Part shown: piece by piece, positions 25,737 to 43,671 of the stretch
Position numbering within the stretch: position 1 is the stretch's first letter
How the letters are laid out: the number at the start of each line of letters is the position of its first letter
Source: Pseudooceanicola nitratireducens
GTDB lineage: Bacteria > Pseudomonadota > Alphaproteobacteria > Rhodobacterales > Rhodobacteraceae
Length of the DNA: 64,000 bases
NCBI RefSeq assembly: GCF_900109195.1
Contig: NZ_FNZG01000001.1
Location: forward strand, 124,001-188,000
Direction of reading: 5' to 3'
Notes under the pieces: model-generated
What the model was told of the DNA's origin: nothing
What the model saw: the letters and a program-made list of their open reading frames with translations, nothing else
Databases searched by the model: none
Translations under genes and position numbers: made by a program

Positions 25737-25795
25737 CCAGGCCGCGTATCGCGACCCACTACTTTCTTTCGCCCGTTGCACTGAAGGAGGATGCC

Positions 25796-28308: not shown

Positions 28309-28990
28309 CGGGCTGCGCCTGACCCAGGGCGGGTTTTCCCTGACCGCCGACTGGACTTTGCCAAAAGGCGCGCGGCTGGCGTTGATCGGGCCCTCGGGCG
28401 CGGGGAAATCCACGTTGCTTGCGGGGATCGCGGGGTTCCTCGCCCCCTTGCATGGGCGCGTCACCTGGGACGGCACCGACCTGACCGGTGTGCCCCCGGG
28501 CAAACGCCCCGTGGCGATGCTGTTCCAGGACGGCAACCTGCTGCCGCATCTGACGCTGGCGCAGAACGTCGGCCTTGGCCTGCGCCCCGATCTGCGGCTG
28601 ACCTCTGACGACCGCGAAACGGTCTCATCGGCGCTGGCCCGCGTTGGACTGGCCGGGCTGGACGCCCGTCGCCCCGCCGCTCTGTCGGGCGGTCAGCAAT
28701 CGCGCGCCGCGCTGGCCCGGGTGCTGGTGATGCGCCGGCCGATCCTGCTGCTGGACGAACCCTTTGCCGCGCTTGGTCCCGCCCTCAGGGCCGAGATGCT
28801 GGATTTGGTCAGCGCAGTATTGGGCGAGACCGGGGCGACGCTTCTGATGGTGACGCATGAGCCCGAGGATGCCGCCCGCATCACCGATCTGATCAGCGTG
28901 GTGGCGTCGGGCCGGGCCGAGCGACCCGTTCCGACGCAAGAGGCGCTGGACAACCCAGGCCCTGAATTGGGCGCCTATCTGGGGCGCTGA
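28295..28990 (+). CDS. thiQ: Thiamine ABC transporter ATP-binding protein
   Basis: This 231-residue ABC ATPase has Walker A GPSGAGKST, Q-loop FQDGNLLPHLTL, signature LSGGQQSRAALARVL, Walker B ILLLDEPFAALGP and the switch histidine in VTHEPEDA. It is shorter than most ABC ATPases, as usual for ThiQ. It overlaps the thiP end by 14 bp and completes the thiBPQ operon under riboswitch control. Confidence 0.96.
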   Translation: MLTLDGLRLTQGGFSLTADWTLPKGARLALIGPSGAGKSTLLAGIAGFLAPLHGRVTWDGTDLTGVPPGKRPVAMLFQDGNLLPHLTLAQNVGLGLRPDLRLTSDDRETVSSALARVGLAGLDARRPAALSGGQQSRAALARVLVMRRPILLLDEPFAALGPALRAEMLDLVSAVLGETGATLLMVTHEPEDAARITDLISVVASGRAERPVPTQEALDNPGPELGAYLGR

Positions 28991-29019: not shown

Positions 29020-30183
29020 TCAGGCGCGACCGGTGAATTCCTTCACCATGCGGCGCGCGATGATCATCTGCTGGATCTGGCTGGTGCCTTCATAGATCCG
29101 CAGCAACCGGCTGTCGCGGAACAGACGCTCGATCGGGTATTCGGCCATATAGCCCGCCCCGCCGTGGATCTGCAGCGCCCGATCCGCCACCCGGAACGCC
29201 ATTTCCGAGGCAAAGAGCTTGGACGAAGACGCCATCAGCACCGCCTGACCTTCGCGGTCATAGGCCTCGGCGGTGGCGCGGACCAGGTGGCGGGCGGCCA
29301 ACAGCTCGGCCTGGCTTTCCGCCAGCATGCCCTGCACGAACTGGTGTTCGGCAATCGGCACGCCGAACTGCTTGCGGTCGATGGCATAGGCGGTGGCCAC
29401 GTCCAGCATCCGCTGCGCCGTGCCCACGGCGATGGACGACACATGCACGCGCCCCCGGTCCAGCACCTTCATCGCGGTGCGGAAGCCCCGGTTCAGGTTC
29501 TGCGGCCCGCCGATGATCGCGCTTTCCGGCAGGCGCACGTCATCAAAGATCACGTCCGACGTCTTGGTGCCGCGCTGCCCCAGCTTGCGGTCGGGTTTCG
29601 CCACGGTGATGCCGGGCGTATCCGCAGGCAGCAGGAAGGCCGAGACACCATCGCCCCCCGGACGATCCGGGTCGGTCCGGGCAAAGACGGTGAAGACCCC
29701 GGCGCGCACCGCATTGGTGATGTACCGCTTGGTGCCGTTCAGAACGAAATCCGTGCCGTCGCGCCGCGCGGTGGTCTTCAGATGGGCCGCGTCCGATCCG
29801 ATGTCCGGCTCGGTCAGGGCAAAGCTGGCGATCATGTCGCCGCTGGCCAGATCGGGCAGATACTGCGCCTTCTGCGCGTCGGTGCCATCCATGACGATGC
29901 CCTGCGACCCGATGCCCACATTGGTGCCGATCAGCGACCGGAAGGACACCGAGGCATAGCACAGCGCCTCGACCAGGCGGCTTTCCTGCAGCGTGGTCAG
30001 GCCCAGCCCGCCGTGCTCTTCCGGGATCGACAGGCCGAACAAGCCCATTTCGCGCATCTCCTGCACGATCTCTTCGGGGATCTCGTCTTCTTCCTCGACG
30101 CGGGTTTCGGCCGGGATCAGGCGTTCGCGGACAAAGCGCTCGACCGTGTCGAGAAGCTGGCGGAAGGTATCGTCGTCAACCAT
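29020..30183 (-). CDS. Acyl-CoA dehydrogenase
   Basis: The 387-residue flavoprotein has the three-domain acyl-CoA dehydrogenase fold. It shows the FAD/substrate signature ASFALTEPDIGSDAAHLKTTA, the middle-barrel region KRYITNAVRAGVFTVFARTD, and the C-terminal IHGGAGYMAEYPIERLFRDSRLLRIYEGTSQIQQMIIARRMV. The Glu of IYEGT sits at the position of the catalytic base in short/medium-chain enzymes. It forms 2-enoyl-CoA and passes electrons to ETF. It is the last gene of the minus-strand arm of the 29-41 kb catabolic locus, 10 bp after the TRAP permease gene, so it probably acts on the imported acid after CoA activation. Confidence 0.93.
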   Translation of the reverse strand: MVDDDTFRQLLDTVERFVRERLIPAETRVEEEDEIPEEIVQEMREMGLFGLSIPEEHGGLGLTTLQESRLVEALCYASVSFRSLIGTNVGIGSQGIVMDGTDAQKAQYLPDLASGDMIASFALTEPDIGSDAAHLKTTARRDGTDFVLNGTKRYITNAVRAGVFTVFARTDPDRPGGDGVSAFLLPADTPGITVAKPDRKLGQRGTKTSDVIFDDVRLPESAIIGGPQNLNRGFRTAMKVLDRGRVHVSSIAVGTAQRMLDVATAYAIDRKQFGVPIAEHQFVQGMLAESQAELLAARHLVRATAEAYDREGQAVLMASSSKLFASEMAFRVADRALQIHGGAGYMAEYPIERLFRDSRLLRIYEGTSQIQQMIIARRMVKEFTGRA

Positions 30184-30193
30184 GGGGGTCCTT

Positions 30194-32128
30194 TCAGGCT
30201 GTTGCGGTCCGGCGCATGCGGTGCAGCGCGAAAAGCGCCAGGGCCACCGCCACGCCGATCAGATCGGTCACGGGTTCGGGGTAAAGGGACAGAAGCGCGG
30301 CCAGGATCACCACGACGCGTTCCGCCGCGTTGATCCGCCCCGAGAAATACAGCCACCCGGACAGGCCCGCTGACAGCAGAACCACCGAGAAGCCCGCGGT
30401 CGCCACCGCCTGCAGCACGTGCATCGGATCGCCCTGGCCGATCAGCGCAGGTTCCAGCACGAAGAAGACCGGCAGGATGAACAGGATCAGCCCAAGCCGC
30501 ATGGCGGTGAAGCCGGTCTTCATCGCATCGGCCTTTCCGACCGAGGCGGCGGTGATCGCGGCCAGCGCGACGGGCGGGGTGATATAAGACAGCATGCCCC
30601 AGTAGAGGATGTACAGGTGGCTTGCCATCGGGTTCAGCCCGGCCTGAACCAGCGCCGGGGCCAGGATGATGGCCAGGAAGACATAGCAGGCCGAAACGGT
30701 CATCCCCATGCCCAGCACGAAGGATGTCATCGCACCGTACAGCAGCAGCAGGTAGACGTTGCCGTTTGCATATTGCACCAGCTCGCGGGCAAAGGCCGAC
30801 CCGACCCCGGTGATCGACAGCGCGCCCACCACAAGCCCGACACCGGCCAGGATGCCGATCAGCTGGGCCAGGGCGACGCCGCTTTCCTCGATGATCTTGG
30901 TGACGGCCAGGACGCGCGGGCGGAAATAGGGGTCCAGCAGCGCGCCGACGATCATCACGCCGGTCGCGTACCAGGGCGCATAGCTTTCCAGACGCAGCAC
31001 CAGCAGCACGTAGATCAGCACCGCCAGCGACAGCACGAAGATCCAGCTTTGCCGCAGCACCGACCGCCCCGAGGGGATGTCGGCCTCGTCCGCGCCCTGC
31101 AGGTCCTTGCTGGCCGCATAGCAATCGGCCTGCAGCAGAAGCGCCGCGTAGAACAAAAGAGAGGGGATGACGGCGGCGGCGATGACCTCTCCGTAGGGGA
31201 CGGCCAGGAAGGTCGCCATCAGGAAGGCCGCGGCCCCCATGATCGGCGGCATCAGCGTCCCGCCCGTCGAGGCGCAGGCCTCGACCGCCGAGGAGTAATG
31301 CGGCGAGTAACCGGCCTTTTTCATCGAGGGGATCGTGAAGGTCCCGGTGGTGATGATGTTCGACACCACCGACCCCGACAGCGATCCGAACAGGGACGAG
31401 GCGACGATAGCCACCTTGGCGGGCCCGCCCCGTGTCCGGCCCAGCAGCTTCAGCGCCAGGGCCATGAAGAATTCGCCCCCGCCCAGCAGCGCAAGCACCA
31501 CGCCGAAGATGATGTAGCCGATCAGCAGGTCGGCCACGACGCGGAAGGGGATGCCGATGATGGATTCCGTGCCAAGCGCATGGGCCGCCACCAGCCCCGA
31601 CCAGCTGAACTGGTTCCCCCAGAGCACGCCGGGCATGGAATCCGCGATCATCGGGTAAAGCCCGAAGACCGCGCAGACCACCGCCAGCAACAGCCCGGCA
31701 CAGCGGCGCACGCCCTCGATCGACAGGACGAACAGGATCGACGCCCCGACGGTCGGCCAGAAGGGGGCAGCAAAGGACCAGCCCGCCGTCATGATCCGCC
31801 GCGCCTGGAAGGCCAGGTAGGTACAGATCACCAGCGCCGCCACGGCCATCGCCCAGTCCATAAGCCACAGCCACATCGGCCGGTCGCGCCGGTCGGCCGG
31901 GAACCGCAGGAAAACCACGGCCAGAAAGACGCCCAGAAGCGCATAGTAGAAGGCCGAGGTGATCGGCCGCATCCCCGGCGCGATGATCGGCAGGGTCTGC
32001 ACCATGGTCATGGCGATGCCGACCACCGACAGGGCGATCACGACGACGCGCGACAGGCGCATCATGGCGGTGTCGGCGGGGGCCGGTGCTTGTGGTGCGG
32101 TCTCGGGGATCTGCTCGGAAAGGCTCAT
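30194..32128 (-). CDS. TAXI-type TRAP transporter permease (fused small and large subunits)
   Basis: The 644-residue membrane protein has about 16-18 hydrophobic segments. The N-terminal third resembles the DctQ-like small subunit and the rest the DctM-like large subunit (FGSLSGSVVSNIITTGTFTIPSMKKAGY, EACASTGGTLMPPIMGAAAFLMA). Fused 4TM/12TM permeases are characteristic of TRAP systems using TAXI binding proteins, and one is encoded just upstream. Such transporters use ion gradients to import carboxylates. The likely substrate is the acid degraded by the surrounding CoA-dependent enzymes. Confidence 0.93.
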   Translation of the reverse strand: MSLSEQIPETAPQAPAPADTAMMRLSRVVVIALSVVGIAMTMVQTLPIIAPGMRPITSAFYYALLGVFLAVVFLRFPADRRDRPMWLWLMDWAMAVAALVICTYLAFQARRIMTAGWSFAAPFWPTVGASILFVLSIEGVRRCAGLLLAVVCAVFGLYPMIADSMPGVLWGNQFSWSGLVAAHALGTESIIGIPFRVVADLLIGYIIFGVVLALLGGGEFFMALALKLLGRTRGGPAKVAIVASSLFGSLSGSVVSNIITTGTFTIPSMKKAGYSPHYSSAVEACASTGGTLMPPIMGAAAFLMATFLAVPYGEVIAAAVIPSLLFYAALLLQADCYAASKDLQGADEADIPSGRSVLRQSWIFVLSLAVLIYVLLVLRLESYAPWYATGVMIVGALLDPYFRPRVLAVTKIIEESGVALAQLIGILAGVGLVVGALSITGVGSAFARELVQYANGNVYLLLLYGAMTSFVLGMGMTVSACYVFLAIILAPALVQAGLNPMASHLYILYWGMLSYITPPVALAAITAASVGKADAMKTGFTAMRLGLILFILPVFFVLEPALIGQGDPMHVLQAVATAGFSVVLLSAGLSGWLYFSGRINAAERVVVILAALLSLYPEPVTDLIGVAVALALFALHRMRRTATA

Positions 32129-32259
32129 GACGGGGTCATCCTATGGGCAGGGCCGGCCCGCCGTCTGGCAGGTCCATCGGGCGGGTCGGCGCAGGCTGCA
32201 TCAGGACCGCCCCGCGCGGAACGCGGGACGGCCATGGATCAGGTCGGATCAGGCGGCGA

Positions 32260-33411
32260 TCACAGGGCCGCCGTGGCCTTGGCGCGGGCCTCGTCCCAGG
32301 CGGCGGCAAACTCGGCCTCTCCCAACCCCTTGTTCGCGGCCAGGAAGTCGGGCCAGGCGGCGGTCAGGGCCTCGATCTCGGCGACTGAACGGTCGTTCCA
32401 GGCCTGCTGTTGGTCCGACCACTGGCCGATTTCCTGCAGGTAGCGGATCGCGCCTTCGTGCAGGGGGGCGTCCATCGGCGTGGTGCCGGACATCTTGATG
32501 CCCCATCTTTCCATGATCGGCGCGGCGTCCTTGTAGCCCGGATAGCTTTCGTCCAGCGCCTTGAGGAAACCGTAGGTCATGTCGGGATCCGCATCGTGCA
32601 TCACCGTGACCATCGGGTATTTATAGGCCACCACGTCCACCGGATCCTTGCCGGTGACGCCGACGCCGATGGTTTCCCGGAACGGAGAGAAGATCGGTGC
32701 GATCTTGTTCATGTTGTCCCAGGCTTCGGCGTCGTTCGGATCGAAGGACAGCCAGCGGATGCCGCGCGGGCTTGCCTCCAACTCGGTCAGGGCAGACGAC
32801 GTCAGGGCAGAGCCCGCCGCATCCGCCTGGCCCTGGGTCAGGGACCGCAGCGTGTCGCCGTAGGACGGGAATTCGATCACCTCGACGTCGTCGCGGGTCA
32901 GCCCCTTGGAGGCCAGCATCGTGTCGACCTTCACCGAGACCGAGGGGTTGGCCGCCGCATAGGCGAACCGCTTGCCGCGCAGGTCCTCGATTTTCTCGAT
33001 ACCGCTTTCCTGGGTGACCACGATGCCGAAGCTGGCGGGGCGGCCACAGATCGTGCGCAAGTTCTGCGGACCCCAGTCGGGCGTCGCGAAATCAAAGATG
33101 CCGCGGGTGGCAAAGAACAATTCATTGGCCAGCCAGGCGGTGCTGGCCTGGCCCATCTTCAGCGGGATGATCCGCCCCACGCCCGACCCCGAGGGCAGCA
33201 GCCGCACGCGGGTGCCATAGTTCTTGATCATCGCATCGGCGATCGCCGTCGCCTCGACATAGCCGGTGGATCCGACGTCGTAGGTGCTCCAGATCATGGT
33301 GTCGGGCAGGCCCGCGGGCTTGTCCTGCGCCCGCAGGACCGCGGGGGCCATGGGTGCGGCGGCCGCCGCCCCGAGAAGCGCCATGGTCTGGCGTCTGTTC
33401 AACTTGGTCAT
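32260..33411 (-). CDS. TAXI-family TRAP transporter solute-binding protein
   Basis: This 383-residue periplasmic protein has a Tat-like signal (MTKLNRRQTMALLGAAAAAP) and TAXI-family features: GSTGYVEATAIADAMIKNYG, VRLLPSGSGVGRIIPLKMGQ and GKRFAYAAANPSVSVKVDTML. TAXI proteins bind diverse carboxylates; few ligands are known. The start at 33411 precedes the signal, and the longer open frame upstream is spurious. It lies upstream of the fused permease, between it and the enoyl-CoA hydratase gene. Confidence 0.93.
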   Translation of the reverse strand: MTKLNRRQTMALLGAAAAAPMAPAVLRAQDKPAGLPDTMIWSTYDVGSTGYVEATAIADAMIKNYGTRVRLLPSGSGVGRIIPLKMGQASTAWLANELFFATRGIFDFATPDWGPQNLRTICGRPASFGIVVTQESGIEKIEDLRGKRFAYAAANPSVSVKVDTMLASKGLTRDDVEVIEFPSYGDTLRSLTQGQADAAGSALTSSALTELEASPRGIRWLSFDPNDAEAWDNMNKIAPIFSPFRETIGVGVTGKDPVDVVAYKYPMVTVMHDADPDMTYGFLKALDESYPGYKDAAPIMERWGIKMSGTTPMDAPLHEGAIRYLQEIGQWSDQQQAWNDRSVAEIEALTAAWPDFLAANKGLGEAEFAAAWDEARAKATAAL

Positions 33412-33481
33412 CTTTATTCTCCTCCCTGAGAACGGGCCAGTTGCCTGGCCGTGATGGCCGCCGTGGCGGGGTCCTCTTCCC

Positions 33482-34264
33482 CTAGCGGCCGATGAATCCT
33501 GGTGGACGCTTTTCAAGAAAGGCGCGCCGGGCCTCGTCGTGGTCTTCGGTCGCGAACAGCGCACCCTGCGCTTCGCGTTCGTCGGCAAGCACGGCCTCCA
33601 GGTCACCGTGATGCCGGGTGATGATGCGGCGCATGTGGCCGCCGGGAAGGGGGGCTGCGGGCACCAGGGTCCGTGCCTCTTGGGTGGCCGTGGCGATCAG
33701 GTCTTCGTCCGTCCCAGTTGCGGCCAGCACATCGGCCAGGCCCATGTCGACGGCGGCTTCTCCCCGAACCTCGGTGCCCTGTTGCAGGAACCGCAGCGCC
33801 CGCGCTGCGCCGATGCGCCGGGGCAGGGACCACATGGCCCCCATGTCCGGCACCAGGCCGACACGACCGAAGCTGGCGCAGAACCGCGCGCCGGGGGTGG
33901 CGACCACGCTGTCGCAGCACAGCGCCAGCGACATGCCGCCGCCATAGGCCACGCCATCGACGGCCGCGACGACCGGTTTCGGGCCAAGCGCGATCAGCCG
34001 CACAACGTCATGCACCACGTCCAGCCGGGTCAGCGCGATGTCGACCGGCTGGCCCATGCCCTTGATGTCGCCGCCGGCGCAAAAACAGCCGCCGGACCCG
34101 GCCAGCACGATGCTGCAGACGGCCGGATCCTCGTGCGCGGCGCGCAGGGCATCGCGCAGCTCGGCCCGCATCTCGTCGCTAAGCGCATTCCGGCGTTCGG
34201 GCTGCATCAGGCGAAGGATCCGGACCTCTCCGTCTTGGGTAAGGTTCAGGCAGTCGGTGGTCAT
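33482..34264 (-). CDS. Enoyl-CoA hydratase/isomerase (crotonase) family protein
   Basis: The 260-residue crotonase has the oxyanion-hole segments NALSDEMRAEL and GCFCAGGDIKGMG, and AAVDGVAYGGGMSLALCCD. Mitochondrial enoyl-CoA hydratase has two catalytic glutamates. Here the first position reads FGRVGLV without a Glu, and the second is an Asp in VPDMGAMW, as in PaaG-like isomerases (PDAGG). It may therefore be a 2,3-/3,4-enoyl isomerase rather than a simple hydratase. It is the first gene of the minus-strand arm, divergent from the IclR gene. Confidence 0.88.
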   Translation of the reverse strand: MTTDCLNLTQDGEVRILRLMQPERRNALSDEMRAELRDALRAAHEDPAVCSIVLAGSGGCFCAGGDIKGMGQPVDIALTRLDVVHDVVRLIALGPKPVVAAVDGVAYGGGMSLALCCDSVVATPGARFCASFGRVGLVPDMGAMWSLPRRIGAARALRFLQQGTEVRGEAAVDMGLADVLAATGTDEDLIATATQEARTLVPAAPLPGGHMRRIITRHHGDLEAVLADEREAQGALFATEDHDEARRAFLEKRPPGFIGR

Positions 34265-34370
34265 CGGGTCAACGCTGCCCCGTGCGGCAGATGTGTTGAT
34301 TCTGTGCGTCCGGGCGGGGTCCGCATGTGAAATTCCTTTCAATAGCAATGCGTTGCCTCTGACCTATGAT

Positions 34371-34384
34371 TGGAATCGTTTCCA
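34371..34384. promoter_or_regulatory. IclR-type operator candidate 1
   Basis: TGGAA-TCGT-TTCCA is a perfect 5-4-5 inverted repeat in the divergent region between the enoyl-CoA hydratase and IclR genes. It resembles the TGGAA/TTCCA arms of known IclR-family operators. Regulation of both arms is inferred. Confidence 0.45.
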
Positions 34385-34407
34385 GAGGGGCTTGCGTCAT
34401 GTCGGCC

Positions 34408-34431
34408 ATTCTGTATAACGAATGGCATTCG
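34408..34431. promoter_or_regulatory. IclR-type operator candidate 2
   Basis: Two overlapping dyads lie 18-41 bp upstream of the IclR start: ATTC-N8-GAAT (34408-34423) and CGAATG-G-CATTCG (34419-34431, perfect). The position fits autoregulation by repression. Confidence 0.4.
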
Positions 34432-34448
34432 GACAAGAGAAAAATCTA

Positions 34449-35222
34449 ATGAAGACCTCGGACCCCCAGAAATTCGTCGGCGCCGTCGAGAACGCGGTGA
34501 AGATCCTGCGCCGCCTGGCCCAGGTGCCCGCGCCCGAGGGCGTGGCGATCGTGGCGCGGGAAACCGGGCTGAACGTCTCGACCACCTACAACATCTTAAA
34601 AACGCTCGCAAAAGAGGGGCTGGTCACCTTCGATGAACGGACCAAGGGCTATGCCATCGGCATGGGCGTGCTGGAGCTGGCCGCACCCATGCTGGGCCGC
34701 AACCCGGGCGATATGATTCGCCCGGTGATGGAGCGGATCTCGAGCGAGCATTCGGTTCTTGTCGCGCTTTGGACCATCACGCCGAACGGGCGGATCGTCC
34801 TGTCGGACCGGATCTCTCCGTCTGACGTGGTGCGCGCCGACATGCAGCCGGGATCGCGTCTTCCGGATCTTGTGGGGGCCGTCGGCCGCTGCGTTGCCGC
34901 CGCCCGCGACATGGACAAGGACAGCCTGCGCGACGCCTATGGCCGGCTGCGCTGGCAGCGCGCGCCCGGCTTCGACGCCTACTGGGACGAGGTGCAGCAG
35001 GCCAAGATCGACGGCTACGCCTTCGACTTCGGTCAGCTGTTCCGGGGCCTCAGCATCGCCGCCGTGGTGATCCGCGACATCGAGGGCACGCCCCGCCTGG
35101 GCCTTTCCACCATCAGCATATCCGACCAGATCGAAGAAGCCGCCCTGCGCGACGCCGCCATGGCCCTGCGGTCGGCAAAGACTTTCATCGAATTGAACGT
35201 ATTCGGGCGGCGCGACAGCTAG
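34449..35222 (+). CDS. IclR-family transcriptional regulator
   Basis: The 257-residue protein has an N-terminal winged helix (about residues 12-75: AVENAVKILRRLAQ, VARETGLNVSTTYNILKTLAKEGLV). The C-terminal IclR effector domain has RCVAAARDMD and SIAAVVIRDIEG followed by LGLSTISIS. The start at 34449 is preceded by AATCTA. It sits at the centre of the 29-41 kb catabolic locus, divergent from the hydratase-TRAP arm and 21 bp upstream of the acyl-CoA synthetase gene, so the two may be cotranscribed. It probably senses the imported acid or its CoA ester. Confidence 0.92.
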   Translation: MKTSDPQKFVGAVENAVKILRRLAQVPAPEGVAIVARETGLNVSTTYNILKTLAKEGLVTFDERTKGYAIGMGVLELAAPMLGRNPGDMIRPVMERISSEHSVLVALWTITPNGRIVLSDRISPSDVVRADMQPGSRLPDLVGAVGRCVAAARDMDKDSLRDAYGRLRWQRAPGFDAYWDEVQQAKIDGYAFDFGQLFRGLSIAAVVIRDIEGTPRLGLSTISISDQIEEAALRDAAMALRSAKTFIELNVFGRRDS

Positions 35223-35243
35223 CACCGCCAGGGGGGAGAACAG

Positions 35244-37373
35244 ATGACACAGCACAGCGCGGCCTCGCTCGGGGCCTTTTTCGCGCCGCGCGCCATTGCG
35301 GTGATCGGGGCATCGGACAACCCGACGCGGATCGGCGGGCGTCCGGTGGATTTCTGCAAGGCCGCAGGGTTCGACGGGCCGATCTATCCGGTCAACCCGA
35401 CCCGCGACACCGTGCAGGGCCTGAAGGCCTGGCCCGACATCGAGGCGATCGAGGGCGAGGTCGACCTGGCCGTCCTGGCCATTCCCGCCGCCCGCGCCGA
35501 AGAAACGCTGGAGGCCTGCGGGCGCAAGGGCGTGAAGGCCGCCGTCATCTTCTCGGCCGGGTTTTCCGAAGTGGGCGAAGAAGGGCGCGCCGCGCAGGAC
35601 CGTCTGCTGGCCATCGCCGCGCGCTATGGCATGCGCATCCTGGGGCCCAATTGCCTGGGCTGCTATTCCTCGGCCTCCGGGGCCTGCGCGACCTTTACCA
35701 CCGGGCTTGAAGGCGGGATGCCGCGCCGGGGCGGTATCGGGCTGATCACCCAGTCCGGGGCCTATGGCACCCATCTTCTGTCGATGGCCAAGGCGCGGCG
35801 CCTGGGCGTTGCGGGCTGGGTGTCCACCGGGAACGAGGCCGACATCTCGGTCGCGGAATGCCTGGAATATATGGTCGAACAGCCCGAGATCACGGCGATC
35901 GGCATGTACATGGAAGGCGTCAACGACGCCCCCCGCCTGATCCGCGCCCTGTCCCGCGCCCGCGATCTGCGCAAGCCAGTCACCATCATCAAGGTCGGTG
36001 CATCCGAGGTCGGCGCCGCCGCCGTGCAATCGCACACCGCGTCCCTTGCCGGGTCGGATGCCAGCTTTCAGGCGGTGATCGAGCAATACGGGGCCGTGCG
36101 CGCCATGACCACGGAAGAGATGTTCGACACGCTCTACGCCGCATCCGTCGCGCCGATGCCCAAGGGCAAGCGCCTGGGGATCCTGACCGTGTCGGGCGGG
36201 GCCGGGGTGCTGATGGCCGACGCGGCCGAGCTGCGCGGCATGCAGGTGCCGGCCATGCCCGAGGCGTCCGTCACTAAGTTGCTGGAACGCAATCCCTTTG
36301 CCTCTCCGCGCAACCCGGTCGACATCACCGCCCATGCGCTGAACGATTTCGACCTGATCCCGGAAAACCTGGCCGAAATGATGCGCACCGGCGGCTACGA
36401 CGCCTACACCGGGTTCTTCACGTCCTGGACCAGTTCGCCGGTGATCGGGCCGAAACTGCGCGATGTGCTGTTGCAGACGCTCAAGGGGGCGGAGCTGCCC
36501 TTTGCGGTGATCGGCCTGTTCAATGACGAACAGGCGACCGCCTACGAGGATCAGGGCCTGCTGACCTTTGCCGACCCGTCGCGCGCGGTCACGGCCCTTG
36601 CCACCATGGCGCAGCTGGCCGAAGGGTTCGACCGTGGGGCCGAGGGCACGCCGCCGGTGATCGACGACACCGATCTGACGGGCACCCCCACGGATGAGGC
36701 CGGTGCCAAGACCCGCCTGGCCGAGGCCGGCATCCCCATCCTGCCCGAACGCGTTGTCGGCACCGCCGACGAAGCCGCCGCCGCCGCGCAAGAAATGGGC
36801 CTGCCGGTGGTTCTGAAGATCGTGTCGCCCGACATCGCTCACAAGACCGAGGTCGGCGGCGTCGCCCTGAACCTGGGCGATGCCAAGGCGGTGCGGGATG
36901 AAGCCCGGCGCATGCTGACCGATATCCCGACGCTGTGCCCGGGCGCGCGGATCATGGGAATCCTGGTGTCGCCCATGGCAGGGGCCGGGGTCGAACTGAT
37001 CGTCGGCACGCAGCGTGACCCGGTCATGGGCCCCATGGTCATGGTCGGGCTGGGCGGTGTCCTGACCGAGGTGCTCGAGGACGTGGCGCTGGCCCATGCC
37101 CCCGTCAGCGAAGCCCAGGCGTTGCAGATGCTGGCGCGTTTGCGCGGGGCCAAGCTGCTGGACGGCTACCGCGGCGAACAGCCCGTTGATCGGGCGGCCA
37201 TCGCGTCGGTGATCGCGCGGCTGTCGGTTCTGGCGGCGGCGAATGCCGACACCATCGACAGCATCGAAATCAACCCCCTGCTGGCGCGCCCCGAAGGCGC
37301 GGTCGCGCTGGACGCGCTGATCCTGCCGGTCGCGGCACAGGACGTCCCCCAGGACGGAAAGGACAAGACATGA
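35244..37373 (+). CDS. Acyl-CoA synthetase (NDP-forming), acetate-CoA ligase family
   Basis: The 709-residue fused protein has an N-terminal CoA-binding Rossmann domain (FAPRAIAVIGASDNPTRIGG), a central succinyl-CoA-synthetase-like flavodoxin domain (GIGLITQSGAYGTHLLSMA) and a C-terminal ATP-grasp domain (GLPVVLKIVSPDIAHKTEVGGV, with the subfamily's KT-GGV motif). Such enzymes form acyl-CoA via a phosphohistidine, using ATP or GTP and releasing NDP. It overlaps the next gene by 4 bp and is the probable activating step for the acid imported by the TAXI-TRAP system. Confidence 0.92.
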   Translation: MTQHSAASLGAFFAPRAIAVIGASDNPTRIGGRPVDFCKAAGFDGPIYPVNPTRDTVQGLKAWPDIEAIEGEVDLAVLAIPAARAEETLEACGRKGVKAAVIFSAGFSEVGEEGRAAQDRLLAIAARYGMRILGPNCLGCYSSASGACATFTTGLEGGMPRRGGIGLITQSGAYGTHLLSMAKARRLGVAGWVSTGNEADISVAECLEYMVEQPEITAIGMYMEGVNDAPRLIRALSRARDLRKPVTIIKVGASEVGAAAVQSHTASLAGSDASFQAVIEQYGAVRAMTTEEMFDTLYAASVAPMPKGKRLGILTVSGGAGVLMADAAELRGMQVPAMPEASVTKLLERNPFASPRNPVDITAHALNDFDLIPENLAEMMRTGGYDAYTGFFTSWTSSPVIGPKLRDVLLQTLKGAELPFAVIGLFNDEQATAYEDQGLLTFADPSRAVTALATMAQLAEGFDRGAEGTPPVIDDTDLTGTPTDEAGAKTRLAEAGIPILPERVVGTADEAAAAAQEMGLPVVLKIVSPDIAHKTEVGGVALNLGDAKAVRDEARRMLTDIPTLCPGARIMGILVSPMAGAGVELIVGTQRDPVMGPMVMVGLGGVLTEVLEDVALAHAPVSEAQALQMLARLRGAKLLDGYRGEQPVDRAAIASVIARLSVLAAANADTIDSIEINPLLARPEGAVALDALILPVAAQDVPQDGKDKT

Positions 37374-37762
37374 GCGACCCGATCTGGACCTACGACCGTT
37401 TTGAGCCGGGCCAGTCCTTCGGAGAGGTGACGATCCCGCTGGACACCGAACGCACCGACGGCTGGGCCGCGATCTATGGCCCCCCGACCGGCCCCGATGC
37501 GCCTGACGGCATGATCGTCGCCGGCATGATGGAGGCCTATATCCGCGCCATCCAGCCCCGGCCAAAGGGCAATGTGCATGCCTCTCAGACACTGGCCTTC
37601 ACCGGGGCCACCGTGCCGCTTGGCGCCAAGGTCACCTATCACGTCTCGGTCCGCGACAAGGCGCTGAAGAAGGGCCGCAACTGGGTGACCTTTTCCTTGC
37701 GCGCCGAAGCCGCCGGGCAAGAACTGATGACAGGCGAGATCCTGTCGATCTGGGCTGCCTGA
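37370..37762 (+). CDS. Hotdog-fold MaoC-like protein, probable non-catalytic hydratase subunit
   Basis: This 130-residue hotdog-fold protein starts MSDPIWTYDRFEPGQSFGE, a MaoC-like N-terminus. The hydratase motif D-x4-H is missing: at that place it has YGPPTGPDAPDGMIVAGMM. The immediately following gene encodes a complete MaoC hydratase with the motif, 11 bp downstream. In mycobacterial ChsH1-ChsH2 one subunit supplies catalysis and the other lacks it, so a heteromeric hydratase is a reasonable inference. It overlaps the CoA-synthetase stop by 4 bp. Confidence 0.8.
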   Translation: MSDPIWTYDRFEPGQSFGEVTIPLDTERTDGWAAIYGPPTGPDAPDGMIVAGMMEAYIRAIQPRPKGNVHASQTLAFTGATVPLGAKVTYHVSVRDKALKKGRNWVTFSLRAEAAGQELMTGEILSIWAA

Positions 37763-37773
37763 GGAGCACCGCG

Positions 37774-38139
37774 ATGACCTATCCCGACACGATCCCCGCC
37801 CTCACCATCCAGTCCACGCCCGAGGCCGCGCAGGCCTATGCCGCGCTGACCCAGGACTGGAACCCGATCCACCTGGATGCGGATTTCGCCGCCGACACGC
37901 CCTTTGGCCGACCGATCGCCCATGGCACCATGGCGCTGAACCTGCTGGTCGAGGCGATCGCCCGCGCCGGCCTGCGGATCGCCGATCTGGACATCCGCTT
38001 CAGCGCGCCGACCTACGTGGGCCAAAGCCTGACCGCCACGGCCCGCCACCAGGGTGCCGGCAGCTACGAGGTCACCGTGCTGGCCGAGGGCGAGACGCCG
38101 GTGCTGACGGGACGCGCCACCCTGAAGGCCCGCGGCTGA
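37774..38139 (+). CDS. MaoC-family enoyl-CoA hydratase, catalytic subunit
   Basis: The 121-residue hotdog protein has the full (R)-hydratase motif TQDWNPIHLDADFAADTPFGRPIAHGTMALNL; Asp and His of D-W-N-P-I-H are the catalytic pair. It adds water across a trans-2-enoyl-CoA double bond. It follows the motif-less hotdog gene and its stop shares a base with the thiolase-like start (TGATG), so these genes are tightly coupled. At 121 residues it is a single-hotdog subunit that must oligomerise. Confidence 0.9.
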   Translation: MTYPDTIPALTIQSTPEAAQAYAALTQDWNPIHLDADFAADTPFGRPIAHGTMALNLLVEAIARAGLRIADLDIRFSAPTYVGQSLTATARHQGAGSYEVTVLAEGETPVLTGRATLKARG

Positions 38140-39278
38140 TGGCCTATCTGCGCGCCGCCCATGCGACCGCCTTTGGACGCCACGAAGGCGCGGACCCGCT
38201 GTCGCTGATGGCCGATGCCGCCGACCGGGCGCTGGATCAGGCGGGGATGGAGAGGGGGCAGATCGACGGGCTGATCTGCGGCTATGCCACCACGCTGCCG
38301 CACCTGATGCTGGCGACGCTCTTTGCCGAAGGCTACGGCCTGTCGCCCACCTATGCCCATGGCATGCAGATGGGCGGCGCGACCGGGGCGGGCATGGTGC
38401 ACCTGGCGCAGATCCTCGTGTCCTCGGGCACCTGCCGCAATGTGCTTGTGGTTGCCGGGGAAAACCGGCTGACCGGACAAAGCCGCGATACATCTGTGCA
38501 GACGCTGGCGCAGGTCGGCCATCCCCAGGCCGAGGTGCCCGCCGGGGCGACCGTGCCCGCCTATTACGCCCTGACCGCCGCGCGCTATCTGCACGATACC
38601 GGGGCAAGCCAGGCGGATCTGGCCGAACTGGCGGTGCTGATGCGCCGCCACGCCGCGACGACGCCGGGGGCCCATCTGACCGCGCCCCTGACGGTCGCCG
38701 ATGTCACCGCCTCCCGCCCCATTGCCGATCCGCTGAAGCTGCTGGATTGCTGCCCGATCTCGGACGGCGGCGCGGCGGTCATCGTTTCGTCCACGCCCGG
38801 GGATGGCCCGGCGGTGAAGATCACCGGCGCAGCCCAAGCCCATACGCATCAGCACATCAGCGAAGCCCCCGACGACCTTGCCCTTGGCGCGCGCCAAAGC
38901 GCGGCCCGCGCGCTGGAGATGGCCGGGGTGGGGATCGGCGATATCGGCTATCTCGCCGTCTACGACAGTTTCACCGTGACCCTTGCCTTGCTGCTCGAGG
39001 CGCTTGGGATCAGCGCCCCGGGGCAGGCCGGACGCGATGCCGCCGCCGGGCGCTTTGACGCGGCGGGGGCGCTGCCACTGAACACCCATGGCGGGCTTCT
39101 GTCCTATGGCCATTGCGGCGTCGCCGGGGCCATGGCGCATCTGGCGGAATGCTTTGCCCAGATGACCGGCCAGGGCGGGGCGCGGCAGATCCCGACACGA
39201 CCCGCACATGCCCTGATGCATGGCGACGGCGGTGTTCTGTCCTCGCATGTGTCGCTGGTGATGGAGGCCCTGGCATGA
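38139..39278 (+). CDS. SCP2-type thiolase homologue lacking the nucleophilic cysteine; possible retro-aldolase
   Basis: The 379-residue thiolase-fold protein has QMGGATGAGMVHLAQIL where thiolases have the acyl-accepting Cys, so the nucleophile is absent. The C-terminal NTHGGLLSYGHCGVAGAMAHLAE keeps the second catalytic region, and a VYDSFTVTLALLLEALG motif is typical of SCP2/lipid-transfer-protein homologues. Cysteine-less homologues of the Ltp2 type act as aldolases together with a DUF35 protein. The DUF35 gene follows with a 4-bp overlap and two MaoC genes precede. Retro-aldol cleavage of a tertiary 3-hydroxyacyl-CoA is therefore the favoured inference. Confidence 0.82.
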   Translation: MAYLRAAHATAFGRHEGADPLSLMADAADRALDQAGMERGQIDGLICGYATTLPHLMLATLFAEGYGLSPTYAHGMQMGGATGAGMVHLAQILVSSGTCRNVLVVAGENRLTGQSRDTSVQTLAQVGHPQAEVPAGATVPAYYALTAARYLHDTGASQADLAELAVLMRRHAATTPGAHLTAPLTVADVTASRPIADPLKLLDCCPISDGGAAVIVSSTPGDGPAVKITGAAQAHTHQHISEAPDDLALGARQSAARALEMAGVGIGDIGYLAVYDSFTVTLALLLEALGISAPGQAGRDAAAGRFDAAGALPLNTHGGLLSYGHCGVAGAMAHLAECFAQMTGQGGARQIPTRPAHALMHGDGGVLSSHVSLVMEALA

Positions 39279-39604
39279 GCGCGATCCAGATCCAAAGCTG
39301 CCCGGCCTGCGACACCCACTGGTTTTTGCCGCGCGACCGCTGCCCCCGGTGCAGCGGGCCGGTCCAGACCCTTGAAAGCACCGGCCTGGGCCGGGTCTTT
39401 GCGGTCACCACCCAGCACCGGGCCCCCGCGCGCGACTTCCCCGTCGCGCCGCCCTGGCGGATCGGTCTGATCGACCTGGACGACGGGGTGCGCGTCATGG
39501 GCCACCTGGATGCGGAGGCCGTGATCGGCGCGCGCGTCCGGGGACAGATGCGCGATTTTGCGGGGGCCCTGGTCCCCGGCTTCGACACACTTGGAACATC
39601 GTAG
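39275..39604 (+). CDS. DUF35 zinc-ribbon/OB-fold protein, partner of the thiolase homologue
   Basis: This 109-residue protein has an N-terminal rubredoxin-like zinc ribbon (C-P-A-C ... C-P-R-C, about residues 9-27) and an OB-fold (ESTGLGRVFAVTTQHRAPAR, IGLIDLDDGVRVMGHL). DUF35 proteins bind SCP2-thiolase homologues and are needed for their aldolase or thiolase activity. In mycobacterial ChsH2 the DUF35 unit is fused to the MaoC domain; here it is free-standing. The ATGA overlap with the thiolase-like gene indicates stoichiometric synthesis. Confidence 0.9.
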   Translation: MSAIQIQSCPACDTHWFLPRDRCPRCSGPVQTLESTGLGRVFAVTTQHRAPARDFPVAPPWRIGLIDLDDGVRVMGHLDAEAVIGARVRGQMRDFAGALVPGFDTLGTS

Positions 39605-39619
39605 AAAAGGACGGATGCC

Positions 39620-40534
39620 ATGGACGGACTTCTGAAAGACAAGGTGATGCTGGTCACCGGCGCAGGCGGCGGCATCGGGCGGGACATCGCCCTTGCTGCG
39701 GCGCGGGCCGGGGCGGCGGTCGTGGTCAACGACCTCGGGGCCAGCCTCAAGGGGGACCGCGAAAACTCCGGGGCCGCCGACAAGGTCGTGGCCGAGATCG
39801 AGGCCGAAGGCGGCCGCGCCATCGCCAACGGGGGATCGGTCAGCGATCCCGACGCCGCGCGCCAGATGGTCAAGGACGCGGTCGAGGCCTTCGGGCGGCT
39901 GGACGCTGTGGTCAACAACGCCGGAATCCTGCGCGACGGCTTCTTCCACAAGATGACCTACGAGGATTTCGATGCCGTGGTGAAGGTGCACCTGTATGGC
40001 GCGTTCAACACGTCCCGCGCGGCGGCCGACCAGTTCCGTGAACAGAACGGCGGGGCGCTGATCCACATGACCTCGACCTCGGGTCTGATCGGCAACCTGG
40101 CGCAGGCGAATTACTCCGCCGCCAAGCTGGGCATCGCGGCGCTGTCGAAATCCATCGCCCTGGACCTGGCGCGCTGGAACGTGACCTCGAACTGCATCGC
40201 CCCCTTTGCCTGGAGCCGCATGACCTCGTCCATCAAGGTCGACAGCCCCGAGCAAGAGGCGCGGGTGAAGAAGCTTCAGGAAATGAAGCCCGCCAAGATC
40301 GCGCCGCTGGCCGTCTACCTGGCCTCGGACCGGGCGCGCGACGTGACCGGACAGGTCTTTGCCTCGCGCAACAACGAGCTGTTCGTGATGAGCCAGCCGC
40401 GCCCCGTCAAATCGGTCCACCGGGCCGAGGGCTGGACGCCCGAGACGGTGGCCGATCACGCCATGCCCGCCCTGCGCGCCGGGTTCATGCCGCTGGACGT
40501 GTCGGGCGACGTCTTCAGCTGGGACCCGATCTAA
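39620..40534 (+). CDS. Short-chain dehydrogenase, HSD17B4-like (3-hydroxyacyl-CoA dehydrogenase type)
   Basis: The 304-residue SDR has the Rossmann motif TGAGGGIGRDIALAAARAGA, an insertion VVNDLGASLKGDRE typical of peroxisomal multifunctional-enzyme-type dehydrogenases, NNAG and the catalytic Ser-Tyr-Lys (TSTSG, QANYSAAKLG). HSD17B4-like SDRs oxidise (R)-3-hydroxyacyl-CoA to 3-ketoacyl-CoA with NAD, which suits a MaoC-type (R)-specific hydratase upstream. It is longer than a single SDR domain, with a C-terminal extension after residue 245. It lies 15 bp after the DUF35 gene. Confidence 0.9.
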   Translation: MDGLLKDKVMLVTGAGGGIGRDIALAAARAGAAVVVNDLGASLKGDRENSGAADKVVAEIEAEGGRAIANGGSVSDPDAARQMVKDAVEAFGRLDAVVNNAGILRDGFFHKMTYEDFDAVVKVHLYGAFNTSRAAADQFREQNGGALIHMTSTSGLIGNLAQANYSAAKLGIAALSKSIALDLARWNVTSNCIAPFAWSRMTSSIKVDSPEQEARVKKLQEMKPAKIAPLAVYLASDRARDVTGQVFASRNNELFVMSQPRPVKSVHRAEGWTPETVADHAMPALRAGFMPLDVSGDVFSWDPI

Positions 40535-40544
40535 GGAGCCATCC

Positions 40545-41339
40545 ATGCCCAAACGCAAGGACAAGCTGACCTCGAACATCGGGTGGAGCATCTCGGACCA
40601 GATCAATGTCCACGGGCTCGACCTGCCGTCCGAGATCCTGGGCCATGTCAACCTGGGCGACATGGCCTTCATGCAGGTGACCGGGCGGCGGCCCGATCCG
40701 GCGGAATCGGTGGTCTTCAACGCCATCGCCGTGACGCTGGTCGAACACGGGATCACGCCATCCGCCCTGGTGGCGCGCCTGACCTACATGGGCGCGCCGG
40801 AATCGCTTCAGGCCGCCGTGGCGGCGGGGCTGTGCGGGTTGGGCACGGTCTTTGTCGGCTCGATGGAGGGCGCGTCGCGCATGCTCTACGCCGCGCTGCC
40901 CCGGGACCAGGCGGGGCAGGGCGCTGACCTCGGGGCCATCGCGGATGACGTTGTGTCCGACCATGTCGCGGCGGGCCGGATCGTTCCGGGTCTGGGCCAT
41001 CCGGTGCACAAACCGGTCGATCCCCGCACCCCGCGCCTGTTCCAGATCGCGGCCGAGAACGGCAAATCCGGCGACTACGTCCGCTTGATGCAGCTGATCC
41101 AGGAGAAGGCCGAGGCCCAGTCGGGCCGGCAACTGCCCATCAACGCGACCGGGGCCATCGGCGCGATCTGCTGCGAATTCGGTTTCCCGCAAGAGATCAT
41201 TCGCGGCTTTGGCGTCATGGCGCGGGCGATCGGCCTGGTCGGTCACATCCTCGAGGAAACGCGCGACCCAATGGCCTACGAGATCTGGCAGCGCACCGAA
41301 GAAGAGATCCTGGCCTCCTCCGGCCCGGATCGCGGGTAA
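40545..41339 (+). CDS. Citryl-CoA-lyase-like protein (citrate synthase superfamily)
   Basis: The 264-residue protein matches the C-terminal citrate-synthase-like part of ATP-citrate lyase. It has the CoA/citrate loop GLGHPVHKPVDPRTPRL with the catalytic His, and RAIGLVGHILEETRDP near the end. The motif corresponding to N-V-D in citrate synthase and ACLY reads INATGAIG, so the acidic catalytic residue is replaced by Thr. It probably cleaves or forms a citryl-CoA-like branched hydroxyacyl-CoA, but the true substrate is unknown. It is the last gene of the plus-strand arm, with a terminator downstream. Confidence 0.85.
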   Translation: MPKRKDKLTSNIGWSISDQINVHGLDLPSEILGHVNLGDMAFMQVTGRRPDPAESVVFNAIAVTLVEHGITPSALVARLTYMGAPESLQAAVAAGLCGLGTVFVGSMEGASRMLYAALPRDQAGQGADLGAIADDVVSDHVAAGRIVPGLGHPVHKPVDPRTPRLFQIAAENGKSGDYVRLMQLIQEKAEAQSGRQLPINATGAIGAICCEFGFPQEIIRGFGVMARAIGLVGHILEETRDPMAYEIWQRTEEEILASSGPDRG

Positions 41340-41532: not shown

Positions 41533-42324
41533 TCAGGCGATCTTCTTGCCCTTGTGCGGGGCCCACAGACGCTTGTTCGTCAGGTAAAGCAGCGCGCCCA
41601 GGATGACCAGGAAGACCACGCCGACAAAGCCCGCGTGCTTGCGCGCCATCATCTTCGGCTCGGCCGCCCACATCAGGAAGGCCGCGACGTCTTCTGCTTC
41701 GTGGTGCAGATCGTTGGCGTGACCGTCGGCGAATTCCACGTCCTCGCCCGCCAGGGGCGGGGCCATTGCGATCCAGCCGCCGGGGAAGGCGGTGTTCTCG
41801 TAATAGGTGGTGCCGGCTTCTTCCTTGGTCTCGCCGGTGTAGCCGGCCAGGATGCTGACGATGTACTCAGCGCCGCCCATGCCTTTGAACAGCTGGTTCA
41901 GACCCAGGCCATAGGGCCCGTGGAAGCCCGCGCGACCCTTCGCCATCAGCGACAGGTCGGGCGCGTTTTCCAGGTTGGACACCGGGAAGTGGTCGGCCGG
42001 TTTCGCCGGACGGAAATCGTCCAGCTCTGCGTCGAAGACCTCGAAGTTCTGGGCCGCATAGGCGCGGACCTGATCTTCGGGCAGATGCGGGCCACCTTCG
42101 TCGGCAAGCGTCCGGATCGGCACATAGCGCAGACCGTGACAGGCCGAGCAGACCTCGGTGTAGATTTGCAGGCCGCGCTGAAGCTGGTTCTGGTCAAAGG
42201 TGCCGAACGGCCCCTCGAACGAGAAATCCACGTCTTCGATGTGGCCTTCGCTACCTGCCGCCTGGGCGGCACCGGCCGAAAGGGCCAGTGCTGCAAGGGC
42301 AGAGATGGTGAACTTGCGGAACAT
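41533..42324 (-). CDS. petC: Cytochrome c1 of the cytochrome bc1 complex
   Basis: The 263-residue protein has a signal peptide ([16 protein letters not shown]) and the haem c motif [11 protein letters not shown]. The acidic region and methionine-ligand region follow, and a single C-terminal membrane anchor ([23 protein letters not shown]) holds the haem domain in the periplasm. It passes electrons from the Rieske protein to cytochrome c2 or cy. It is the third gene of the operon and ends at a clear terminator. Confidence 0.97.
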
Positions 42325-42340
42325 GATCTCTGTCCTTTCC

Positions 42341-43660
42341 TTATTCGGCGGGGGTCTTGTTGCCGTAGTGCGCTTCGAAGTCTTCTTCGATGGACGCGGG
42401 CTGCGGCAGCGGTTTCTCGATCACGCCGAGGATCGGCAGGATCACCAGGAAGTAGGCGAACCAATAGGTCGAGCCGATCAGCGAGATGGTCGAATACGGC
42501 GGTTCAGCCGGCATCGCGCCACACCACATCAAGACCACGAAGTCGATCAGCAGCAGGTAGAACCACCACTTGAACATCGGGCGATAGCGACCGGACCGCA
42601 CCGAGGAGGTGTCGAGCCAGGGCGTCAGCGCCATCACGGCGATGGCCGCGAACATGGCCAGCACGCCGAAGAACTTCGCGTCGACGATGCCGCCGGTGAT
42701 CCAGCTTGCCGCCATCACGATCCAGACGTCGCCGGTGAAGGCACGCAGGATGGCGTAGAAGGGCAGGAAGTACCACTCGGGCACGATATGCGCCGGCGTC
42801 GAAAGCGGGTTCGCTTCCAGGTAGTTGTCGGGGTGGCCCAGGTAGTTGGGCATGAAACCGACGATGGCGAAGAAGATCACCAGCACGACGACCAGACCAA
42901 CGAGATCCTTGATCACGAAGTAGGGCCAGAAGGGCAGGGTGTCTTTCTTGGCTTCTTCCTTGGACCCGCGACGGACCTCAACACCCGTGGGGTTGTTGTT
43001 GCCGGTCGAGTGGAAGGCCCAGATGTGCACGATCACCAGGCCCGCGATGACGAAGGGCAGCAGGTAGTGCAGCGAGAAGAAGCGGTTCAGCGTGGCGTTG
43101 TCCACGGCGGGTCCGCCCAGCAGCCAGGTCTGGATCGCTTCGCCCACGAAGGGGATCGCGCCGAACAGGCCGGTGATCACGGTCGCCCCCCAGAAGGACA
43201 TCTGACCCCAGGGCAGAACATAGCCCATGAAGCCGGTCGCCATCATCAGCAGGTAGATGATCATGCCGATGATCCAGGTGATTTCGCGGGGTGCCTTGTA
43301 GGACCCGTAGAACAGACCGCGGAAGATGTGGATGTAGACCGCAAAGAAGAACAGCGATGCGCCGTTCATGTGCAGGTAGCGCAGGAAATGGCCGCCGTTC
43401 ACGTCACGCATGATGTGTTCGACCGACGCGAAGGCCAGGTCCACATGCGGGGTGTAATGCATCACCAGGACGATGCCGGTGACGATTTGCAGCGCCAGGC
43501 AGAAGGCCAGGACGATGCCCCAGATCCACCACCAGTTCAGGTTCTTCGGGGTGGGAATCATCAGGGTGTCATAGAGAAGGCCGATGATCGGCAGGCGGGA
43601 ATGGACCCACTTTTCGCCTTTGGTCTTCGGTTCGTAATGATCGTGGGGAATACCGGACAT
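42341..43660 (-). CDS. petB: Cytochrome b of the cytochrome bc1 complex
   Basis: The 439-residue protein has eight membrane helices in one chain, as in alphaproteobacterial and mitochondrial cytochrome b. Haem-ligand histidines lie in [23 protein letters not shown] and in the fourth helix ([25 protein letters not shown]). The quinol-oxidation-site motif [13 protein letters not shown] (P-E-W-Y) is present. It contains the quinol oxidation and reduction sites of complex III. It lies between petA and petC with 11- and 16-bp gaps. Confidence 0.98.
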
Positions 43661-43671
43661 TGCTATCTCCC

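Follow-up and report, generated by a model that had tools for sequence, protein, structure and literature searches.

The DNA examined here (the window) is a stretch of 64,000 nucleotides from contig NZ_FNZG01000001.1 of Pseudooceanicola nitratireducens. Positions 29020 to 41339 hold twelve genes in two divergent arms around an IclR-type regulator, and the core of this locus is a recurring unit in related genomes while the complete set is rare. In our estimate there is about an even chance that the locus serves the substrate-inducible uptake and catabolism of a branched, probably dicarboxylic, acid. The initial annotation had described the gene content and order of both arms and had read the locus as one IclR-linked unit for transport plus coenzyme A (CoA) dependent catabolism. 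Both descriptions held, the second through recurrence of the core in relatives. Besides TAXI, TRAP and IclR, the genes are called ACAD (acyl-CoA dehydrogenase), ECH (crotonase fold), ACS (nucleoside diphosphate (NDP)-forming acyl-CoA synthetase), HD1 and HD2 (MaoC-type hotdogs), THL (thiolase-like), DUF35, SDR and CCL ('citryl-CoA lyase' homologue).

Recurrence of the locus and of its candidate IclR site

Comparison of gene neighbourhoods, which the initial annotation had proposed as a check, showed that the core genes co-occur in seven syntenic loci with a shared motif. These are the window, the genomes G052, G088, G066, G188 and G189, and a Limimaricola plasmid. TRAP, TAXI, ECH, ACS, a MaoC hydratase, ACAD and IclR are present in 7/7, SDR in 6/7, THL-DUF35 within the operon in 5/7 and CCL in 3/7. 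Because seven loci share both synteny and motif, the gene set is not a chance grouping.

G052 carries a near-complete divergent copy (ACAD 90%, SDR 88%, CCL 85%, TRAP 82%, TAXI 79%, ACS 68%, ECH 68%, HD1 60% and HD2 58% identical) with no THL-DUF35 between HD2 and SDR. Its THL-DUF35 pair (58% and 32%) begins about 4 kb past ACAD and is divergent from another operon that has an IclR of its own. A sister form, found in G088, G066, G188 and the Limimaricola plasmid, consists of TRAP, TAXI, ECH, a fused two-domain MaoC, ACS, THL, DUF35, ACAD, IclR and SDR and also holds a 4HBT thioesterase; identities are 34–35% for THL, 73–78% for ACAD and 72–77% for SDR. G189 has the sister form without THL, DUF35 and SDR, and a 73% CCL lies elsewhere on its contig. 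ACAD identity is 73–90% in five syntenic loci and 76% in Limimaricola. THL (at least 49%) and HD1 matches coincide in 3/198 family genomes: the window genome (G000), G052 and G137. Taking the window genome as given, the chance that the other two coincide would be about 1 in 19,000 for independent genomes, and these genomes are not independent. THL and CCL homologues (81/87% in Pseudooceanicola aestuarii, 76/82% in Litorivita) probably share a contig in each organism. tblastn missed DUF35 in loci L136 and L137, where blastp detected it.

In the intergenic region between the arms, ATTCTGTATAACGAAT at 34408-34423 is followed by a second copy at 34427-34442. G052 keeps this block with both sites, and the IclR promoters of G088, G066, G188 and G189 carry similar ones, so that an ATTC-N8-GAAT-like site is common to all seven syntenic loci. 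The tight form, ATTCTNTATNNNRAAY, was found once in the 4.06 Mb of the organism's own genome. A slightly looser form, fixed after the defining loci had been inspected, gave 16 matches (13 places, 9 loci) in 2.33 Mb of 167 loci and 0 in each of five first-order resamplings. Six of the 13 places are within the motif-defining loci. The other seven are in L117, where the motif precedes an ACAD and the TRAP gene; in the closely similar pair L059/L063, at IclR and other promoters; and in L131, some 330 bp before an ACAD-like gene. The Limimaricola plasmid, fetched after the motif was fixed, supplied two more sites, at IclR and at the ACAD/SDR promoter. The motif occurs in only 2/80 of the further THL loci described below. 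Enrichment in the window is not seen for the loose pattern ATTCN8RAAW (6 matches, 4.1 expected; 27/100 shuffles reach 6); it holds for the tighter form alone, itself defined after the loci had been seen. These results support the view that one IclR type acts on one kind of site. The site offers a way to identify the inducer and, through it, the substrate. As a separate observation, L059:8214 and L059:14533-14665 place ATTC-N8-GAAT-like motifs at promoters of another THL-DUF35 locus with IclR.

Features of the locus are collected in Table 1. All twelve genes were found with order and strands as first described, and family matches were obtained for 11/12 by Pfam and NCBIfam scans of the window proteins. 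Gene calling by codon usage, with the genes of the window itself as training set, reproduced the gene set and proposed starts, correcting those of TAXI (33411), ECH (34264) and DUF35 (39275). IclR probably starts at 34449; an earlier ATG, at 34422, falls within the candidate operator.

Table 1. Genes and candidate operator of the locus (window coordinates).
Feature	Position	Strand	Basis
ACAD, acyl-CoA dehydrogenase	29020..30183	-	Pfam/NCBIfam; YEGT and FRS motifs
Fused TRAP permease	30194..32128	-	TIGR02123, 539 bits over cut-off
TAXI-family solute-binding protein	32260..33411	-	TIGR02122, 187 bits over cut-off; start from gene caller
ECH, crotonase-fold protein, isomerase-like (PaaG type)	33482..34264	-	Pfam/NCBIfam and motifs
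Candidate IclR operator, tandem ATTC-N8-RAAW	34408..34442 (sites 34408-34423, 34427-34442)		Motif
IclR-type regulator	34449..35222	+	Pfam; start from gene caller and intergenic comparison
ACS, NDP-forming acyl-CoA synthetase	35244..37373	+	Pfam/NCBIfam domains; His264 in QSHTASLAG
HD1, MaoC-type hotdog without D-x-N-P-x-H dyad, probable inert partner	37370..37762	+	Profile, predicted model
HD2, MaoC hydratase-2 with Asp28/His33 dyad	37774..38139	+	PF01575
THL, SCP2-thiolase-like retro-aldolase candidate	38139..39278	+	Gly80, Tyr275-Asp-Ser-Phe, His325-Cys326
DUF35/OB_ChsH2_C, C-x2-C-x10-C-x2-C zinc finger	39275..39604	+	PF01796; closest PDB chain 6ok1_B
SDR, MFE-2 (3R)-hydroxyacyl-CoA dehydrogenase type	39620..40534	+	PDB matches 2et6, 1gz6, 1zbq
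CCL, citrate-synthase-fold 'citryl-CoA lyase' homologue, remodelled active site	40545..41339	+	NF004868, 349 bits against cut-off 193

An ABC importer (binding protein, permease by eye, ATPase) adjoins the locus on the + strand at 25664-28990 and was not seen next to ACAD in G052. Directly downstream, on the opposite strand, three genes at 41533-44241 are by eye cytochrome bc1 subunits.

Active sites of the predicted enzymes

The initial annotation called THL a cysteine-less thiolase homologue. The nucleophile is indeed gone, its position being Gly80, a glycine in 12/12 aligned family members (window included); Cys204, Cys205 and Cys326 are nonetheless present and invariant in 22 aligned sequences. 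Tyr-Asp occupies 275-276 in 12/12 members, with Tyr275 (YDSF) invariant in the 22; His325 is found in 12/12, and residue 277 is Ser in 8/12 and Ala in 4/12. The DUF35 gene overlaps the THL gene, and its closest PDB chain is ChsH2(DUF35). THL thus has three features of the Ltp2/Sal-type DUF35-dependent aldolases: a replaced nucleophilic Cys, the Tyr of YD-x-F/Y and a DUF35 partner. The second catalytic residue (Tyr344 of Ltp2, Cys304 of Sal) was not found in THL, which has Ser277 and His325 instead; the alignment to Ltp2 is uncertain at this point because the Ltp2 chain segment used ends there. According to passages of PMC12329534, Sal also has Gly at the nucleophile position, and in Sal and Ltp2 the Tyr of the Tyr-Asp motif acts as base. 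These residues suggest that THL is probably a retro-aldolase. A non-steroid retro-aldol cleavage is reported for ibuprofen breakdown, where passages of PMC9195938 ascribe propionyl-CoA to the ipfDE thiolase.

Eighty further THL loci, the best in a wider genome collection (57–73% identical, many from Bradyrhizobium), were compared; 64 hold at least 15 kb. DUF35 lies no more than 1.5 kb from THL in 78/80. The two that bear HD1, from Albimonas (L031) and Paraburkholderia (L041), read ACS-HD1-HD2-THL-DUF35-ACAD. In G137 (L117) these genes are arranged differently and are joined by TRAP and IclR, with a TAXI-like gene farther off.

HD1 was first called a MaoC-type hotdog. It has no Pfam match, but a profile search with it picks out one solved (R)-hydratase (E 7e-6), and its predicted model (predicted local distance difference test (pLDDT) 94) is a hotdog whose nearest chains are those of HadAB, MaoC-like proteins and (R)-hydratases. 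The D-x-N-P-x-H motif is missing in 9/9 aligned HD1 sequences, whereas the Asp28/His33 dyad of HD2 is invariant in 8/8. At the sequence level the two have the make-up of a heteromeric MaoC, one subunit with the dyad and one without, and HD1 is the probable inert partner of HD2. Work on ChsH1-ChsH2, in the passages of PMC11321319 available, describes such a split into one catalytic and one inert MaoC hotdog. HD1 matched 12/385 genomes of the class. Fifteen HD1 loci were opened (window, L031, L041, L111, L116, L117, L118, L125, L126 and L130-L135), covering 6/11 of the other genomes and 2/11 plasmid records with HD1. HD1 adjoins HD2 in 15/15, and the stretches fetched for 6/15 also contain a THL match. 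At L118:8200-9339 an HD2-type MaoC fused to a crotonase domain adjoins HD1. MFE-2 domains take the first ranks among the PDB matches of SDR, so SDR appears most like an MFE-2 (3R)-hydroxyacyl-CoA dehydrogenase.

ECH had been annotated as an enoyl-CoA hydratase/isomerase. The isomerase part fits better, ECH bearing the VPD-x-G motif seen in PaaG. At the presumed positions of the two catalytic glutamates of crotonase-type hydratases, ECH has Ser (GGG-M-S) at the first and no Glu in the second motif, FCASFGRVGLVPDMG. ECH therefore looks more like an isomerase than a hydratase. In ACAD the YEGT glutamate and the FRS arginine are present in 9/9 aligned sequences, the arginine presumably at the position where glutaryl-CoA dehydrogenase binds the far carboxylate. 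A 63% ACAD paralogue in the same genome (L144, G000:C13:18015-19157) is not surrounded by a similar cluster. His264 of ACS, within QSHTASLAG, is presumably catalytic. The TAXI N-terminus, RRQTMALLG, appears to be Tat-type; a homology search for the TAXI ligand gave weak matches only, and no ligand was assigned.

CCL was compared with 11 close relatives (at least 55%), one at 43% and 20 more distant, with citrate synthase numbering (Asp375, His274). CCL has the citrate-synthase fold and the GH-x His152, and 6hxp (citryl-CoA lyase) is its closest match by sequence and fold (model pLDDT 77). It passes the NCBIfam cut-off although Thr202 replaces the catalytic Asp and Phe103 one catalytic His. The Asp to Thr change and the loss of the His274 equivalent occur in 12/12 close members, window included. 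The 43% relative has lost both residues too, as have 10/10 intermediate ones (Asp replaced by Ser or Thr), and 10/10 distant relatives retain both. The ATP-citrate lyase chain likewise is without that His but keeps the Asp, which is Asp1026 in ACLY; among PDB titles are an ACLY D1026A mutant and a D541A mutant with bound citryl-CoA. Because His152 and Arg227 are invariant and Thr202 is found in 14/15 aligned CCL sequences, CCL is argued to be an active enzyme. A large 'citryl-CoA lyase' subfamily is probably misnamed; of 8000 candidates scored, 5859 proteins reach an E-value of 1e-40 or lower, a number in which other subfamilies may be counted.

The surroundings of CCL vary, modules being swapped around it. 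SDR (at least 73%) is directly upstream in 8/8 family genomes with a full-length CCL of at least 73%, window counted, and 36/38 listed plasmid records of at least 73% have a match running into an annotated SDR/dehydrogenase gene. Pseudosulfitobacter, with many same-size plasmids, makes up 21/102 CCL plasmid records. At the strict cut-off, a phylum-wide search found CCL in 3/398 genomes; it served only to add two loci. Neighbours include the gene labelled ACAD2 with a FAS1-type dehydratase (L113, Pfam-confirmed; L119 and L120, same N-terminus), a CoA transferase with ACAD2 (L124), ACAD2 with MmgE/PrpD (L129, L138), CaiB with isopropylmalate-dehydratase genes (Cupriavidus pBB2), 3-oxoacid CoA transferase, CitE and MmgE/PrpD (Limimaricola), and an ACAD-MaoC-SDR-CCL-TRAP array in Rhodococcus. 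ACAD2 beside CCL is 72–81% identical. The ACAD2-CaiB-dehydratase module closes with CitE in G088 and Limimaricola. Passages of PMC12290011 assign itaconate and methylsuccinate as substrates of such gene sets; on these assignments and neighbours, we infer that CCL serves a citramalyl-CoA-like ester. In L124, L129, G153/G189/G161/G138/G044 and also on Roseobacter plasmids, SDR and CCL lie within a large carboxylase/HMG-CoA-lyase-like catabolic cluster.

Proposed pathway and alternatives

In the pathway that we propose, IclR at ATTC-N8-GAAT-like sites would respond to the acid or its CoA ester by releasing or activating the two divergent promoters. TAXI-TRAP would import the acid, ACS would form the CoA ester, ACAD would desaturate it, and ECH could shift the double bond. 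Hydration by the HD1-HD2 pair would yield a (3R)-hydroxyacyl-CoA with two outlets. The MFE-2-type SDR would take the secondary alcohols; THL-DUF35 would cleave the branched, non-oxidisable alcohols in a retro-aldol reaction, with Tyr275 as base and His325 as possible acid. CCL would split a 3-hydroxy-3-carboxyacyl-CoA, similar to citramalyl-CoA, into acetyl-CoA and a 2-oxo acid, the job of CitE in related modules. A more specific version is less likely than not: a modular IclR-controlled branched-dicarboxylate family in which the DUF35-bound Cys-less THL, with a third active-site pattern (Tyr275, His325-Cys326), would be a non-steroid retro-aldolase and CCL a new Asp-less citrate-synthase-fold C-C lyase acting on a citramalyl-CoA-like ester and displacing CitE. 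The initial annotation had counted two C-C-cleaving enzymes; retro-aldol cleavage fits the active site of THL, but THL-DUF35 and CCL are not constant across loci and CCL has lost catalytic residues. As a source of methylsuccinyl-CoA, 3-methyladipate was considered; the literature search found no support for it.

Several points weigh against the proposed pathway. The complete twelve-gene set was seen in the window only. Regulation, substrate class, step order, every reaction and the activity of CCL are deduced rather than observed. The same hydroxyacyl-CoA would be open to both THL and SDR, which would compete for it unless they act in different rounds or on different isomers. CCL is without the Asp on which citrate synthase and ATP-citrate lyase rely, and its cleaving activity is doubtful because two residues of the citrate synthase triad are lost. 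Between 20001 and 46000 the window gave no match to CaiB, FAS1-type dehydratase or CitE and no ACAD2 above 28%, so the dicarboxylate reading leans on relatives. There too the fit is uneven: the ACAD2-CaiB-dehydratase genes of G188 lack a following CitE, and of four ACAD2 loci outside Rhodobacterales, L169 fits a methylsuccinate cluster, L170 fits in part, with a CoA ester lyase alone next to ACAD2, and L171 and L174 fail to match. That ACAD2 is a methylsuccinyl-CoA dehydrogenase is suggested by synteny alone. The 80 further THL loci hold matches to ACS in 28, TRAP and TAXI in 27, IclR in 8, SDR in 3 (29%), HD1 in 2 and CCL in 0. THL-DUF35 is therefore mostly used without these partners, and the operon does without it in 2/7 syntenic loci (a separate operon in G052, absent from the G189 locus). 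L041 has the same core with alcohol/aldehyde dehydrogenase-like genes (by eye) and no TRAP match, so a monocarboxylate substrate would fit it. From the make-up of the 80 loci, THL-DUF35 is read as an independent pair that joined the core. The count makes it plainer that the pair is an add-on but leaves the odds of the proposed pathway unchanged, because the pathway already treated THL-DUF35 as optional.

Plain beta-oxidation of a methyl-branched acyl-CoA, of the MFE-2/SCPx type known from peroxisomal branched-chain degradation, would employ ACAD, an (R)-hydratase and SDR and make THL-DUF35 a true thiolase with another nucleophile. The best matches of SDR are MFE-2 dehydrogenases, THL is SCP2-thiolase-like, and the fused MaoC of the sister locus G088 matches MFE-2_hydrat-2_N. 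SDR also lies near a canonical thiolase and HD1-HD2 in L118 (SDR 67%) and L125 (SDR by annotation). We nevertheless regard this explanation as unlikely, given a nucleophilic Cys that is Gly throughout the 12 aligned THL family members, a residue said in passages of PMC12329534 to exclude thiolysis in Sal.

If CCL were instead a genuine citryl-CoA lyase, the substrate would be a tricarboxylate, for example tricarballylate converted by way of aconityl-CoA and citryl-CoA to acetyl-CoA and oxaloacetate. The NCBIfam score and the 6hxp fold match agree with this, and ligase, dehydrogenase, hydratase and lyase would suffice for the route. The replacement of the catalytic Asp and one His in every close CCL member makes it very unlikely, as does a scheme that gives THL-DUF35 and SDR no role and relies on a gene missing from 4/7 syntenic loci. 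A fragment of steroid or bile-acid side-chain degradation, suggested by the matches of THL and DUF35 to Ltp2/ChsH2 chains, is highly improbable: HsaA, the sole test, did not reach its cut-off of 450 bits in the genome (best score 23.5; 0/14 control genomes pass, so there is no positive control), and the annotated neighbours in Limimaricola, the sole syntenic locus annotated for them, hold no steroid-ring genes.

Comparison with known systems

The initial annotation stated that the set matches no known pathway, and a literature search agrees with this: among the titles and abstract openings listed, most of them on steroids, itaconate, transporters or genomes in general, none describes this gene set. 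The itaconate/methylsuccinate cluster Ict-Ich-Ccl-Mcd-Msi is similar in its logic of CoA activation, dehydrogenation, hydration and a retro-aldol lyase, as far as passages of PMC12290011 describe it, and gene types of that kind adjoin the sister loci of G088 and Limimaricola. By the same passages the window differs in lacking those genes: Ict, Ich, Ccl, Mcd and Msi were not found together at 20001-46000, and an NDP-forming ACS, a split hydratase, THL-DUF35, SDR and CCL stand instead. Citryl-CoA lyase (6hxp) and the ATP-citrate lyase core share the fold and GH-x His152 with CCL; CCL differs in Thr202 for Asp, and Phe103 at the His274 equivalent is as in the ATP-citrate lyase chain compared.

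The peroxisomal MFE-2/SCPx pathway has a hydratase-2, a (3R)-hydroxyacyl-CoA dehydrogenase and the SCP2-thiolase fold in common with the locus, whereas the window proteins are separate and the thiolase is without its nucleophile. Clusters of Burkholderiales and Methylobacterium containing AtuA combine THL-DUF35-ACS with a second putative lyase, AtuA; they differ in having no CCL, HD1 or HD2 match and, by eye, a Bug-like receptor. AtuA-type proteins adjoin THL-DUF35-ACS at L035:11517-17424 (Pfam-confirmed) and L101:6984-13562 (by eye).

ChsH1-ChsH2-Ltp2 and Shy-Sal resemble the locus in their catalytic and inert MaoC hotdogs (ChsH1/ChsH2), their DUF35 partner and a Tyr-Asp thiolase homologue without the nucleophilic Cys. 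In the window, by contrast, DUF35 is a separate protein and the context is ACS, TAXI-TRAP and IclR. The active-site pattern also differs, with YDSF and His325-Cys326 in the window against YDHF/Tyr344 in Ltp2 and YDCY/Gln352 in Sal. The DUF35-thiolase aldolases studied so far on steroids may act on a broader set of substrates.

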